Program-made: the position numbers and the translations under genes
Part shown: piece by piece, positions 51,070 through 54,576 of the stretch
Position numbering within the stretch: the stretch's first letter is position 1
Layout of the letters: each line of letters starts with the position of its first letter
The notes under the pieces: generated by a model
Told to the model about the DNA's origin: nothing
The model's database searches: none
The model's input: the letters and a program-made list of their open reading frames with translations, nothing else
NCBI RefSeq assembly: GCF_029626105.1
Contig: NZ_JARUBH010000009.1
Span: 2,046,001 to 2,110,000, forward strand
Source of the DNA: Solwaraspora sp. WMMD792
GTDB taxonomy: Bacteria; Actinomycetota; Actinomycetes; Mycobacteriales; Micromonosporaceae
Length of the DNA stretch: 64,000 nt
Direction of reading: 5' to 3'

Positions 51070-52092
51070 GTGACGGTCGATGAAGGACGCAGGATCACGA
51101 TCACCGCGATCGCCCAGGAAGCCGGTGTCTCCGTGCCGACCGTGTCACGGGTGCTGAACGGTCGCAACGATGTCGCCCCGCAGACCCGTGAGCGGGTCGA
51201 GGAGCTGCTGCGTCGGCACGGCTACCGGCGGCGGGCGACCCGGTCCCGCGCCGGTGCCAGCCTGATCGACCTGGTCTTCAACGACCTGGACAGCCCGTGG
51301 GCAGTGGAGATAATCCGCGGCGTGGAGGACGTCGCGCACGCCGCCGGGGTCGGTACCGTCGTCTCCGCCATCCACCGCCGGTCCGCGTCGACCCGGCAGT
51401 GGCTGCAGAACCTGCGTACCCGGGCCACCGACGGTGTCATCCTGGTCACCAGCGAACTCGCTCCGCCGCTGCACACCGAACTGCGGCGGCTCAACGTTCC
51501 GATGGTGCTGGTCGACCCGGCCGGCGTCCCGAGCCTGGACATTCCCACCATCGGGGCGACCAACTGGGCCGGCGGACTGCGGGCGACGGAACACCTCATC
51601 TCCCTGGGACACCGCAGGATCGGCTTCATCGCCGGTCCGCCCCGGCTGCTGTGCAGCCGGGCCCGGCTCGACGGCTACCGGGCCGCGCTGGAGGCGGCCG
51701 AAATACCGCTGCGCCCCGAGTACGTCGTCCCCGGCGACTTCTACCATGAGTCCGGCTTCGCCGGCGCGGCCGCGCTGTTCGACCTCGACGAACCACCCAG
51801 CGCGATCTTCGCGTCCAGCGACCAGATGGCCCTCGGTGCCTACGAGGCCCTGCGGCAACGCGGTTTGCGGGTCCCGGACGACGTCAGCGTGGTCGGCTTT
51901 GACGACCTGCCCGAGGTGCAGTGGTCGTCGCCGCCGCTGACCACGGTGCGCCAGCCGCTGGCCGAGATGGGGCTGCTCGCAGCGCGGACGGTGCTGCGTC
52001 TGGCGCAGGGGGAACCGCTGGAGACACCGCGGGTGGAGCTCGCCACCGAGCTGGTCGTGCGGGACAGCTGCGCGCCGTACCAGGAGCTGTGA
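51070..52092 (+). CDS. LacI-family transcription regulator
   Basis: A 340-residue LacI/GalR regulator. The helix-turn-helix is ITITAIAQEAGVSVPTVSRVLNGRNDVAPQTRERV (residues 8-42, in two blocks). The periplasmic-binding-like sensor domain has SLIDLVFNDLDSPWAVEIIRG, HLISLGHRRIGFIAG, PPSAIFASSDQMALGAYEA and VSVVGFDDLPEVQWSSPPLTTVRQP. The start is GTG 51070, after AAGGAG. It diverges from the GH3 gene and probably represses it until a sugar inducer binds; the TTTCCGGAAA sites are its likely operators. It has the same layout as sugar-utilisation regulators of actinomycetes. Confidence 0.93.
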   Translation: MTVDEGRRITITAIAQEAGVSVPTVSRVLNGRNDVAPQTRERVEELLRRHGYRRRATRSRAGASLIDLVFNDLDSPWAVEIIRGVEDVAHAAGVGTVVSAIHRRSASTRQWLQNLRTRATDGVILVTSELAPPLHTELRRLNVPMVLVDPAGVPSLDIPTIGATNWAGGLRATEHLISLGHRRIGFIAGPPRLLCSRARLDGYRAALEAAEIPLRPEYVVPGDFYHESGFAGAAALFDLDEPPSAIFASSDQMALGAYEALRQRGLRVPDDVSVVGFDDLPEVQWSSPPLTTVRQPLAEMGLLAARTVLRLAQGEPLETPRVELATELVVRDSCAPYQEL

Positions 52093-52209
52093 TCCTCAGC
52101 CGGTCCGGGTGCCCGCGAGGTTAGTGACGATCCGCCCCGGGTACCACCCGCAGGCAGGACCGTGCCGGCGCGGAACCGGCGCGTGTCGACCGACCCGCAG
52201 GGGGCAGCC

Positions 52210-52488
52210 ATGACACTCGACGACGACGACATCCGTAGCACCGGGCCCGCAGCGGGTCACGGACCCGCCGACGGTGGGGCGAATCCGGCTGGGCGGGACG
52301 GTGGTGCCGATGGTGGCGCTGGTCCGAAGGCGCAGGAAGGCCCGGCTGATGGTGGGGCGAATCCGGCCGGCCGGGACGGTGGTGCCGACGGTGGCGCTGG
52401 TCCGAAGGCGCAGGAGGGCCTGGCCGACGGTGGGGCGAATCCGGCCGGCCGGGACGGTGGTGCCGACGGTGGGGCGAACCGGCGTTGA
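52210..52488 (+). CDS. tandem-repeat peptide, possible hydroxylase substrate
   Basis: A 92-residue peptide from ATG 52210, after AGGGGGC. A short acidic head (TLDDDDIRSTGPAAGHGP) is followed by 2.8 copies of a 26-residue unit that reads ADGGANPAGRDGGADGGAGP and then KAQEGP. The unit is rich in Gly, Ala, Asp, Asn and Pro and lacks Cys, Ser, Thr and aromatic residues. No signal peptide is seen. Its stop codon overlaps the start of the JmjC/cupin gene (TTGA), so the pair is translationally coupled. This makes the peptide a candidate substrate of that oxygenase. It could also be a non-functional repeat expansion. Confidence 0.6.
   Translation: MTLDDDDIRSTGPAAGHGPADGGANPAGRDGGADGGAGPKAQEGPADGGANPAGRDGGADGGAGPKAQEGLADGGANPAGRDGGADGGANRR
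52267..52488 (+). repeat. 78-bp in-frame tandem repeat, 2.8 copies
   Basis: Units start at 52267, 52345 and 52423, exactly 78 bases (26 codons) apart; the third is cut to 66 bases by the stop codon. Copies differ at a few third positions and in one codon (Pro to Leu), so the reading frame looks kept. Confidence 0.85.
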
Positions 52489-53819
52489 CCCAGTTGCCCA
52501 CCGCGTCACGCGGTGCCGGCACCGGCGGACCTGGACTCCCCGACCGGCTGCGGATCGCCGCGACGTCACCGGGCCCGCCGGGCGGTGCGGACCCGTCCCG
52601 CCGCCCGGCGGCGCTGACCCGGTGTGTTGCCGTGGACCCGGCGACCTTCGCGGATGTCTACTGGGGGCGTAGACCGCTGCTGTCCCGCGCCGGCGACCTG
52701 GCCGGCCCCGCCGGATTCACCGATCTGCTCGATCGCCCCGCGGCCGACCAACTGCTGAGCCGGCACGGCCTGCGTACCCCGTTTCTCCGGGTGGCCCGGG
52801 ACGGCGAGGTGTTCGCGGAACCGACCTACACCGGCGGTGCCGGCGCCGGTGCCGAGATCGACGACCAGGTGCTCGACGAGCGGGTGTTGGGCCTGTACGC
52901 GGACGGCGCCACCCTGGTTCTGCAGGGCCTGCACCGGCTCTGGCCACCGATCATCTCGTTCGTCGGCGAGTTGTCCACCACGCTGGGCCAGCCGTTGCAG
53001 GCCAACGCCTACCTCACCCCGGCCGGCAGCCGTGGGTTCGCCACCCACTACGACACCCACGACGTGTTCGTCCTGCAGACCGAGGGCCGCAAGCGGTGGC
53101 GGGTGCACGATCCGGTACTGATCGATCCGCTGCCCCAGCAGACCTGGTCGGGCCGGGCCGACGAGGTAGCCGCCCGGTCCGAGGCCGCACCTGCGCTGGA
53201 CGTCGTGCTCGGCCCTGGCGACGCCCTCTACCTGCCCCGAGGCTGGCTGCACAGCGCCACCGCGCAGCAGGAGAGCTCGATCCACCTCACCGTCGGGGTC
53301 CGCGCGTTCACCCGCTATTCGCTGGTCGAGGCGCTGCTCGAGCTCGCCGTCACCGAGCCCCGGCTGCGCACCTCGCTGCCGTTCGGCGCCGACCCGGGCG
53401 AACCGGCCGGGATCACCTCGGAGCTGACCGCAACGGTGGCGGTACTGCGTGACTGGTTGGCCTCCGTTGAGCCCGGCCAGGTCGCGGCGCGGATGCGCCG
53501 TCGGGCCTGGTCGGCGGCCCGCCCGGCCCCACTGCCCCCACTGCAGCAGGCGGACCGGATCCGGACGCTGACCGTCGACGACGTCATCCGCCGCCGCCCG
53601 GGGTTGCGCTGGCGGCTCACCTCGCAGTCGGACGACCGGGTCACCCTGCAGATCTTCGACCGTACGGTGGAGTTTCCGGGTAGGTGCGCCCCGGCCCTGC
53701 GGACGGTGCTGGACACCGCCGGTGTCCGGGTCGGTGATCTGCCCGGGCTGGACACCACCGCCGACCAGCTGGTGCTGGCCCGCCGTCTGCTGCGCGAAGC
53801 GGTCGCGGTCGCCGGCTGA
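52485..53819 (+). CDS. JmjC/cupin_4 Fe(II)/2-oxoglutarate hydroxylase
   Basis: A 444-residue protein of the ribosomal-oxygenase (YcfD/MINA53-like) type. After a loose N-terminus the family begins at VDPATFADVYWGRRPLLSRAG (from about residue 50). The iron ligands are His188 and Asp190 in THYDTHDVFVLQ and His256 in LPRGWLHSAT. GRKRWRVHDP follows the first pair as in YcfD. A helical and winged-helix-like C-terminal half completes the fold. Relatives hydroxylate Arg or His of ribosomal proteins, and some JmjC enzymes act on peptides. The start is TTG 52485, overlapping the repeat-peptide stop; the exact start is uncertain because the first 45 residues look non-conserved. Confidence 0.85.
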   Translation: MTQLPTASRGAGTGGPGLPDRLRIAATSPGPPGGADPSRRPAALTRCVAVDPATFADVYWGRRPLLSRAGDLAGPAGFTDLLDRPAADQLLSRHGLRTPFLRVARDGEVFAEPTYTGGAGAGAEIDDQVLDERVLGLYADGATLVLQGLHRLWPPIISFVGELSTTLGQPLQANAYLTPAGSRGFATHYDTHDVFVLQTEGRKRWRVHDPVLIDPLPQQTWSGRADEVAARSEAAPALDVVLGPGDALYLPRGWLHSATAQQESSIHLTVGVRAFTRYSLVEALLELAVTEPRLRTSLPFGADPGEPAGITSELTATVAVLRDWLASVEPGQVAARMRRRAWSAARPAPLPPLQQADRIRTLTVDDVIRRRPGLRWRLTSQSDDRVTLQIFDRTVEFPGRCAPALRTVLDTAGVRVGDLPGLDTTADQLVLARRLLREAVAVAG

Positions 53820-53905
53820 TCCACCGGGGCCGGGCGTCGTTCCGCCGGCTGATCCACCGGGGCCGGGCGTCGTTCCGCCGGCTGATCCACCGGGGCCGGG
53901 CGTCG
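53811..53905. repeat. 33-bp tandem repeat over the hydroxylase stop codon
   Basis: Units start at 53811, 53844 and 53877; the third is 29 bases. Each carries the last codons and stop of the hydroxylase (GCCGGCTGA) plus GATCCACCGGGGCC-like sequence. The array fills the gap to the convergent operon. Confidence 0.85.
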
Positions 53906-53910
53906 GCGGG

Positions 53911-54576
53911 TCAGCCCAGCCCGGTCAGCAGGGCGGCGGTCGCCGCCAGGCCGGCGACCAGGACGATCGACACGGTACGCAGGTCGAGCACCGCGTGCCG
54001 GCGGTCGGCCAGCGCCTTCGCCGGACCCAGCCCGAGTAGCGGACCGACCAAGGTGACCACGAGCGCGATCACCGGCATCCCGACCGCCAGGTCGCCGCCG
54101 TAGCGCTGGCCAGCCCACCGCGCGGCGGTGGACAGCCCGAACGCGGCGGCGGCTCCGGCGGCGCCGAACACCGCCAGCACCGGATACGCCGACCGGGGCA
54201 GGGGGCCCACGTCGTTGGACCGCTCGACCAAAGCACGGGCGGCCGCGAGCCAGTGCTCCGGATCGTCGTCGACGGCGGTACCCGGGGGCGTCGGCAGTGG
54301 CGGCGGGAGGCCGCCGAGCCGTCCGGCCACCGGCCCGAACCGGTGACCGACCTCGGTCCAGATGTCGGCGGCCGCCCGGTCGACGTCCGCCAGCTCCCGG
54401 CTTGCCTGATCGTGGAGCTGGTGCAGCTCCGCCAGGTCGGCCTCCACCTCGGCCACCGCGGTCTGCGCGCCGTCGCACCGTTGCGCGTACCACTGCTGCG
54501 CTTCGTCCCGACGGTTCTGCAGCGCGGCGGCGAGCTCGGCGAGCCGGCGCATCAGCTCGGGATAGGAGGCGTCCAT
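53911..54576 (-). CDS. coiled-coil membrane protein of the FtsK-type operon
   Basis: A 221-residue protein from ATG 54576; the start overlaps the FtsK-type gene's stop by one base (TGATG). Residues 5-75 are helical and likely a coiled coil (LMRRLAELAAALQNRRDEAQQWYAQ, AVAEVEADLAELHQLHDQA). Three hydrophobic helices lie in the C-terminal half (AYPVLAVFGAAGAAAAFGL, VGMPVIALVVTLVGPLLGLG, VSIVLVAGLAATAALLTG). I do not recognise the family. Position suggests it anchors the ATPase system to the membrane. Confidence 0.75.
   Translation of the reverse strand: MDASYPELMRRLAELAAALQNRRDEAQQWYAQRCDGAQTAVAEVEADLAELHQLHDQASRELADVDRAAADIWTEVGHRFGPVAGRLGGLPPPLPTPPGTAVDDDPEHWLAAARALVERSNDVGPLPRSAYPVLAVFGAAGAAAAFGLSTAARWAGQRYGGDLAVGMPVIALVVTLVGPLLGLGPAKALADRRHAVLDLRTVSIVLVAGLAATAALLTGLG

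Follow-up and report, generated by a model that had tools for sequence, protein, structure and literature searches.

JmjC or cupin-type hydroxylases that act on ribosomal precursor peptides have precedents in biphenomycin biosynthesis, where BipG and PbsQ act on Orn within multi-enzyme clusters (MNIO, arginase, B12-radical SAM, protease), according to the sections of the two accounts that deal with them (PMC12707348, PMC12257519). The locus described here also joins such an enzyme to a ribosomal peptide, but differs from what those sections describe in having one oxygenase and an Asp-rich repeat peptide, accompanied in most lineages by a Suc_Fer-like gene. MNIO, arginase and radical SAM partners of the biphenomycin type are not among the neighbours in the window (the whole 64,000-nucleotide stretch of Solwaraspora sp. 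WMMD792 DNA that was analysed), and elsewhere Suc_Fer is the sole widely recurring neighbour. Beta-hydroxylation of Asp in ribosomal peptides has also been described: the relevant sections credit the MNIO PesHI with hydroxylating one Asp in a RiPP (PMC13060819) and SmaO with hydroxylating Asp at the N-terminus of a graspetide precursor (PMC13097080). The same residue, beta-hydroxyaspartate, is the product proposed here, but compared with what those sections report, it would arise at many positions of a repeat core and through a ROX-type JmjC enzyme.

By structure, the closest described proteins are the ribosomal oxygenases NO66, MINA53 and YcfD, with which the enzyme shares its fold, iron triad, a lysine at the 2-oxoglutarate position and a C-terminal region. 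Since NO66 and MINA53 have His residues of ribosomal proteins as their hydroxylation targets, the fold does not reveal the type of substrate. The enzyme is only 25% identical to NO66, its Arg151, His192 and Asp193 face other residues in the alignment with NO66, and a further difference is the peptide gene that accompanies its own gene. Bregman et al. (2025; PMC12710340) report PF08007 proteins of fish and algae that carry a fused RRE-like fold, and place bacterial homologues at about 30% identity in RiPP-like contexts. The sections of that paper on these JmjC proteins present the same combination of PF08007 with a three-strand, three-helix domain, and do not describe a JmjC peptide family, repeats, a ferredoxin or a target residue; the RiPP-like contexts in them hint at independent support for the pair. 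Among the literature matches listed, no description of this peptide-oxygenase pair was found.

A repeat peptide gene and its adjoining oxygenase

The two genes and their parts are listed in Table 1. The initial annotation had read a 92-residue peptide with a 26-residue repeat, and this is borne out by a self-identity of 74% at a shift of 26 residues, against at most 36% in shuffles (n=2000). Tandem Repeats Finder reports 78 bp x 2.6 copies with a 92% match, and over their first 63 bases units 1 and 2 differ by 5 synonymous and 0 non-synonymous changes. Peptide stop and enzyme start share TTGA at 52485-52488, giving the four-base overlap already annotated. The supposed lack of Cys, Ser and Thr is true of the repeats but not of the N-terminal head, which has 1 Ser and 2 Thr. 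Seven peptides (the window's, and six others at E up to 1) had no Pfam or NCBIfam match. Second copies of the peptide were sought with the GADGGA DNA pattern and rejected: it gave 3 neighbouring matches at the peptide and 20 scattered ones, and the reversed control 13 in total. The peptide of Micromonospora pattaloongensis (L012, 5316-5984) is enlarged to 222 aa, because an additional repeat that contains Arg, DRGVERGADAGADVGA, is inserted among the standard units.

Table 1. Features of the peptide-oxygenase locus, in window coordinates.
Feature	Position	Strand	Remark
Putative promoter GGTTA ... GGGTAC	52119..52144	+	Lies 91 to 66 bases upstream of the ATG of the peptide
Repeat peptide, proposed RiPP-type precursor, 92 aa	52210..52488	+	ATG 52210 to TGA 52488
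Conserved head/leader MTLDDDDIRSTG	52210..52245	+	Head pattern in 87 own-family peptides
Repeat core with about 2.6 copies of a 26-aa unit of PADGGANPAGRDGGADGGAGPKAQEG type	52264..52485	+	
ROX/NO66-type JmjC Fe(II)/2-oxoglutarate oxygenase, 444 aa	52485..53819	+	TTG 52485 to TGA 53819; PF08007 9.5e-30
His188-to-His256 stretch with iron ligands His188, Asp190, His256, plus Lys203	53046..53252	+	Invariant, 93 aligned sequences
C-terminal domain, residues 377-437	53613..53795	+	DSSP of AlphaFold2 model

The enzyme falls in Pfam family JmjC_2 (PF08007, 9.5e-30), and an NCBIfam search at E up to 0.001 returned nothing. Its best solved relatives are NO66 (4y33, 4.7e-23), MINA53, YcfD-like proteins and YxbC. 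In the AlphaFold2 model (mean pLDDT 91, pTM 0.86; residues 1-38 below 50) Foldseek recovers the NO66/MINA53/YcfD fold, with NO66 4ccn at E 6.1e-27, TM 0.65 and 25% identity over 465 columns, a similarity that spans most of the chain. The annotated JmjC iron site is indeed complete, since His188, Asp190 and His256 are invariant in 93 aligned sequences; so are Arg151, His192, Asp193 and Lys203, the last of which we take to be the likely 2-oxoglutarate ligand. Many relatives begin M-T-x-(L/I)-D-P-P a few codons past the peptide stop, and the resemblance of the window's MTQLPT to this start supports initiation at TTG.

Spread of the pair and its neighbourhood

How regularly does a peptide gene precede this hydroxylase? 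A search of the kind that the initial annotation had proposed finds one directly upstream in most homologues. It used 208 loci, from which 12 repeats of other loci and the window's first copy (L001) had been dropped and its second copy (L082) kept, and among which some species, fetched from two collections, count twice. An upstream ORF passed if its last 45 residues held at least 11% Asp and at least 80% D, G, A, S, T, P, E, N and Q. This was so in 197/208 loci, and in 4/337 control genes from the same loci, 3 of the 4 being the same peptides reached through a neighbouring or identical ORF. Asp content was the selection criterion, so the Asp richness of the 197 ORFs is not in itself independent evidence; the control rate and the column conservation described below are. 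Some of the 197, such as that of L187, are acidic and lack clear repeats. Repeat number varies as had been anticipated, from 2 to 6 units in 87 own-family peptides.

The 11 misses comprise four contig edges, three of which show the end of a peptide, one masked locus (L042) with part of a repeat visible, and six divergent homologues (L150, L193, L195-L198) at 31-36% identity. A homologue without such a peptide, named at the outset as the refuting case, is found in these six, although further homologues at similar identity carry the peptide. Upstream of L196, which belongs to the six, a short acidic peptide of another kind, whose head begins MDPIEVEVEDLAEV, lies at about 320 to 216 bases from the enzyme match. 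A further cupin/JmjC relative (35% identity) on plasmid pSCL4 of Streptomyces clavuligerus (L243, 7772-9167) is preceded by a 48-aa peptide with a head L-x-x-D-E-I and Asp-Pro repeats, and is followed by S9 peptidase and ABC transporter genes. To judge from this pair, the association of JmjC enzymes with peptides may extend past the group counted here.

Of 334 stretches from named genomes, the best 80 all come from Micromonosporaceae, where we place Verrucosispora and Amorphoplanes, and in 80/80 the peptide is present, whole or as far as the DNA extends: 71 (L042 being partly masked) and nine more, four of these nine cut by a contig end. Within this family the enzyme occurs in 16/19 listed genomes, and the three without it belong to one genus. 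At wider ranks the enzyme was found in 88/150 genomes of the order (E up to 1e-20), 53/246 of the class and 38/296 of the phylum (both at E up to 1e-30), genome sets that overlap in part.

Neighbourhoods were compared in 36 loci with genes called by a simple script, which called the enzyme in 33. The one widely recurring downstream neighbour, a cluster present in 15 loci, is Suc_Fer-like, and all four members tested match PF06999 (4/4). Outside the window's family a Suc_Fer gene lies behind the oxygenase in 94/111 evaluable loci; the 17/111 without it include the six divergent peptide-less homologues. Inside the family the count is 0/87, and the window's genome has no Suc_Fer gene at E up to 0.001. 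The description of the locus as a two-gene unit therefore does not hold strictly, since outside the window's family this ferredoxin-like third gene is usual. Yeast Apd1 and PF06999 presumably belong together. The sections on Apd1 in PMC11126956 give it a [2Fe-2S] thioredoxin-like ferredoxin domain and call the function of Apd1 itself unknown.

Other shared neighbour clusters outside the window's family join 2 to 4 loci each, and these aside no recurring protease, exporter or other oxidative enzyme was seen beside the pair in the 33 loci, which counts against the RiPP-type reading proposed below. Genes for a leader protease or an exporter are missing from some RiPP loci. Among the window's own neighbours a LacI-type regulator and an FtsK-type ATPase match Pfam, and three others have no match. 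The ATPase, which adjoins the pair, is a 942-aa protein of the FtsK/SpoIIIE family (PF01580; 54576-57404, minus strand), and its cluster recurs in 12/36 loci in the window's family. A perfect 33-bp tandem repeat (2.9 copies, 53810-53905) begins in the last codons of the oxygenase and extends past its stop.

Promoters and regulatory boxes were sought in 156 regions upstream of peptides, each of which showed a head pattern together with four or more DG. The pattern GTT-N13..19-GGGTA(C/T) is present in 75/90 regions of the window's family, in which the window counts twice (WIN, L082) and 78/90 are distinct in their last 100 bases, and in 3/66 others; over ten rounds of dinucleotide shuffling it turns up in 0.4 of 156 regions on average and in 2 at most. 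In the window it lies 90 bases ahead of the ATG. Its conservation is partly shared descent. The pattern resembles SigB/SigF-type stress promoters. Iron regulation was considered and set aside, as an IdeR-like box is not enriched (best match 8-12 of 19 positions, against 8-13 with one shuffle per region), a result that mildly weakens the iron idea. No Rfam element reached its gathering threshold at 51500-54500.

Selection, probable target residue and predicted head binding

Twenty-eight peptides of 101 aa, compared in 336 pairs that differ by 2-20%, give pS 0.386, pN 0.045 and pN/pS 0.116 in frame, against ratios of 4.5 and 8.1 when the frame is shifted by one or two bases. These substitutions show purifying selection on the own-family peptides, confined to a single reading frame. 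The head M-x-L-(N/D/S)-(D/E)-(D/N/E)-D-(I/M) occurs in 87 own-family peptides, themselves picked by that pattern. Among the 21 distinct peptides of 101 aa, invariant columns number 15/15 for Asp, 4/4 for Glu, 7/8 for Pro, 14/17 for Ala and 24/35 for Gly, and 0/2 for His and 0/7 for Gln; the single Asn and Arg columns vary. Asp columns are likewise invariant in eight 80-aa peptides (12/12). In the 100-aa peptides (8 distinct) the figure is 3/15 only, and this set is probably out of register. A table of 21-residue repeats was not used for conservation, because its search pattern fixes E, G, D and A.

Distant genomes reword the repeat, from DGGADGG to GDATDGTDGDASD or DADQGDS...VDPAGSDPAG. In a set of 198 peptides picked by 13% Asp, which includes L187 (also among the 197), L195 and L196, the last 45 residues lack Pro in 36 and Glu in 47. 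Where Asp, Asn, Arg or Pro had been proposed as targets, Asp fits best, and Asn and Arg fall away, together with His, as main targets with unconserved columns. Since Pro and Glu are absent from the last 45 residues of some peptides, and the His, Gln, Asn and Arg columns vary, the alignments point to Asp as the likeliest target residue.

Could the conserved head be what the enzyme recognizes? Peptide and enzyme share a frame, with one or two stops between them, in 62 relatives; for 22 of these a residue took the place of the stop, and the joined chains were aligned with 53 plain enzymes for an AlphaFold2 read-through model. In the resulting single-chain model of L010 (Micromonospora andamanensis) the first ten residues average pLDDT 95 and a strand spans 9-12; pLDDT stays below 50 at residues 19-46 and 48-83, and the enzyme is well formed. 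From this confident strand the head seems, as a prediction of the model, to be bound by the enzyme as an added strand; the model came without PAE or coordinates, and the head site is therefore not located in it.

In the model of the window's enzyme, DSSP gives the C-terminal domain (377-437) the order beta-beta-beta-alpha-(short 3-residue alpha)-alpha. Its last helix, RRLLRE, is basic and conserved (Arg433 0.89, Arg434 0.95, Arg437 0.81) and would suit an acidic head. Membership of the RRE/PqqD group by sequence was rejected: PF05402 (RRE, PqqD-like) is absent among 25 listed of the 41 families matching the 93 enzyme members, and hhalign of the domain against 19 PqqD-like domains gave E 0.23, whereas three blocks taken from elsewhere in this enzyme as controls scored equally well or better (0.094, 0.011 and 0.31).

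A proposed substrate-enzyme pair and its rivals

At the level of sequence, the comparisons establish a real gene, a conserved pairing, conserved Asp residues, an intact iron site and a third gene. As in RiPP precursor/enzyme pairs, a ribosomally encoded peptide under selection lies beside a putative modifying enzyme (197/208 pairing; pN/pS 0.116). The best explanation is a substrate-enzyme pair of RiPP type, in which the head of the peptide would be bound and its repeat Asp residues beta-hydroxylated by a ROX/NO66-type JmjC enzyme, and to which we give a probability of about 0.6. We infer the target (Asp), the reaction (hydroxylation) and the function of the product as follows. The first 12 or so residues (M-x-L-D-D-D-D-I) would serve as a recognition head for the JmjC oxygenase, possibly at its C-terminal winged-helix-like domain, and the disordered repeats would then pass through the active site with its Fe(II) and 2-oxoglutarate, where Asp after Asp would be beta-hydroxylated. 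This would yield a polyanionic peptide with much beta-hydroxyaspartate, a residue that is a good metal ligand, and our best guess for the role of the peptide is intracellular binding of a metal (iron or calcium) under stress. The Suc_Fer protein of most lineages would act as redox partner.

The same pair might carry out another oxidation, with Pro or Asn as the target, or a cross-link, desaturation or cleavage at Asp-Gly. Seven of eight Pro columns are invariant in the 101-aa set, a 2025 title cited in PMC12710340 speaks of macrocyclization by a 2-oxoglutarate dioxygenase in RiPPs, and no evidence here opposes a different reaction at Asp; the peptides without Pro in their last 45 residues and the varying Asn column tell against those two residues, and overall we consider another oxidation unlikely. 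That the enzyme is a ribosomal oxygenase like YcfD or NO66, with the peptide as its regulator, inhibitor or decoy, would agree with its closest folds and with its being the sole PF08007 protein found in the window's genome. A variable repeat number with Asp kept looks instead like a multi-site substrate, and we know of no ribosomal oxygenase that needs a partner peptide, which makes such a role very improbable.

Slightly more improbable still is an unmodified, hydrophilin-like stress protectant whose oxygenase gene is merely co-transcribed: the Gly-rich peptide, disordered in the model, and the likeness of the promoter to stress-sigma promoters suit it, but a phylum-wide linkage to this one enzyme and a conserved head, docked in the model, do not. 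A chance repeat ORF without a product, for which it can be said that GC-rich genomes yield many long ORFs (in 13 kb, 88 that reach 60 aa or more), is contradicted by pN/pS, conservation and the control genes and has next to no probability.

Four aspects of the proposed RiPP-type pair look new: that a single ROX-type enzyme is coupled to a peptide of Asp repeats, how far this pairing has spread, the presence of the Suc_Fer gene, and the binding predicted for the head. A wider conjecture would make this a RiPP family across Actinomycetota, perhaps ancestral, in which a single ROX-type JmjC enzyme works with a thioredoxin-like ferredoxin to produce a metal ligand of poly-beta-hydroxyaspartate, and would also make the C-terminal domain of ribosomal oxygenases, NO66 and MINA53 included, kin to a leader-peptide-binding domain; taken as a whole it is tentative and rather doubtful. 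If the pair is what we propose, a peptide family of which seven tested members match neither Pfam nor NCBIfam would lie within a widespread, conserved actinobacterial operon, as a minimal one-enzyme system that installs many hydroxylated Asp residues, and would offer a route to asking about the relationship between ribosomal oxygenases and the modifying enzymes of small peptides.
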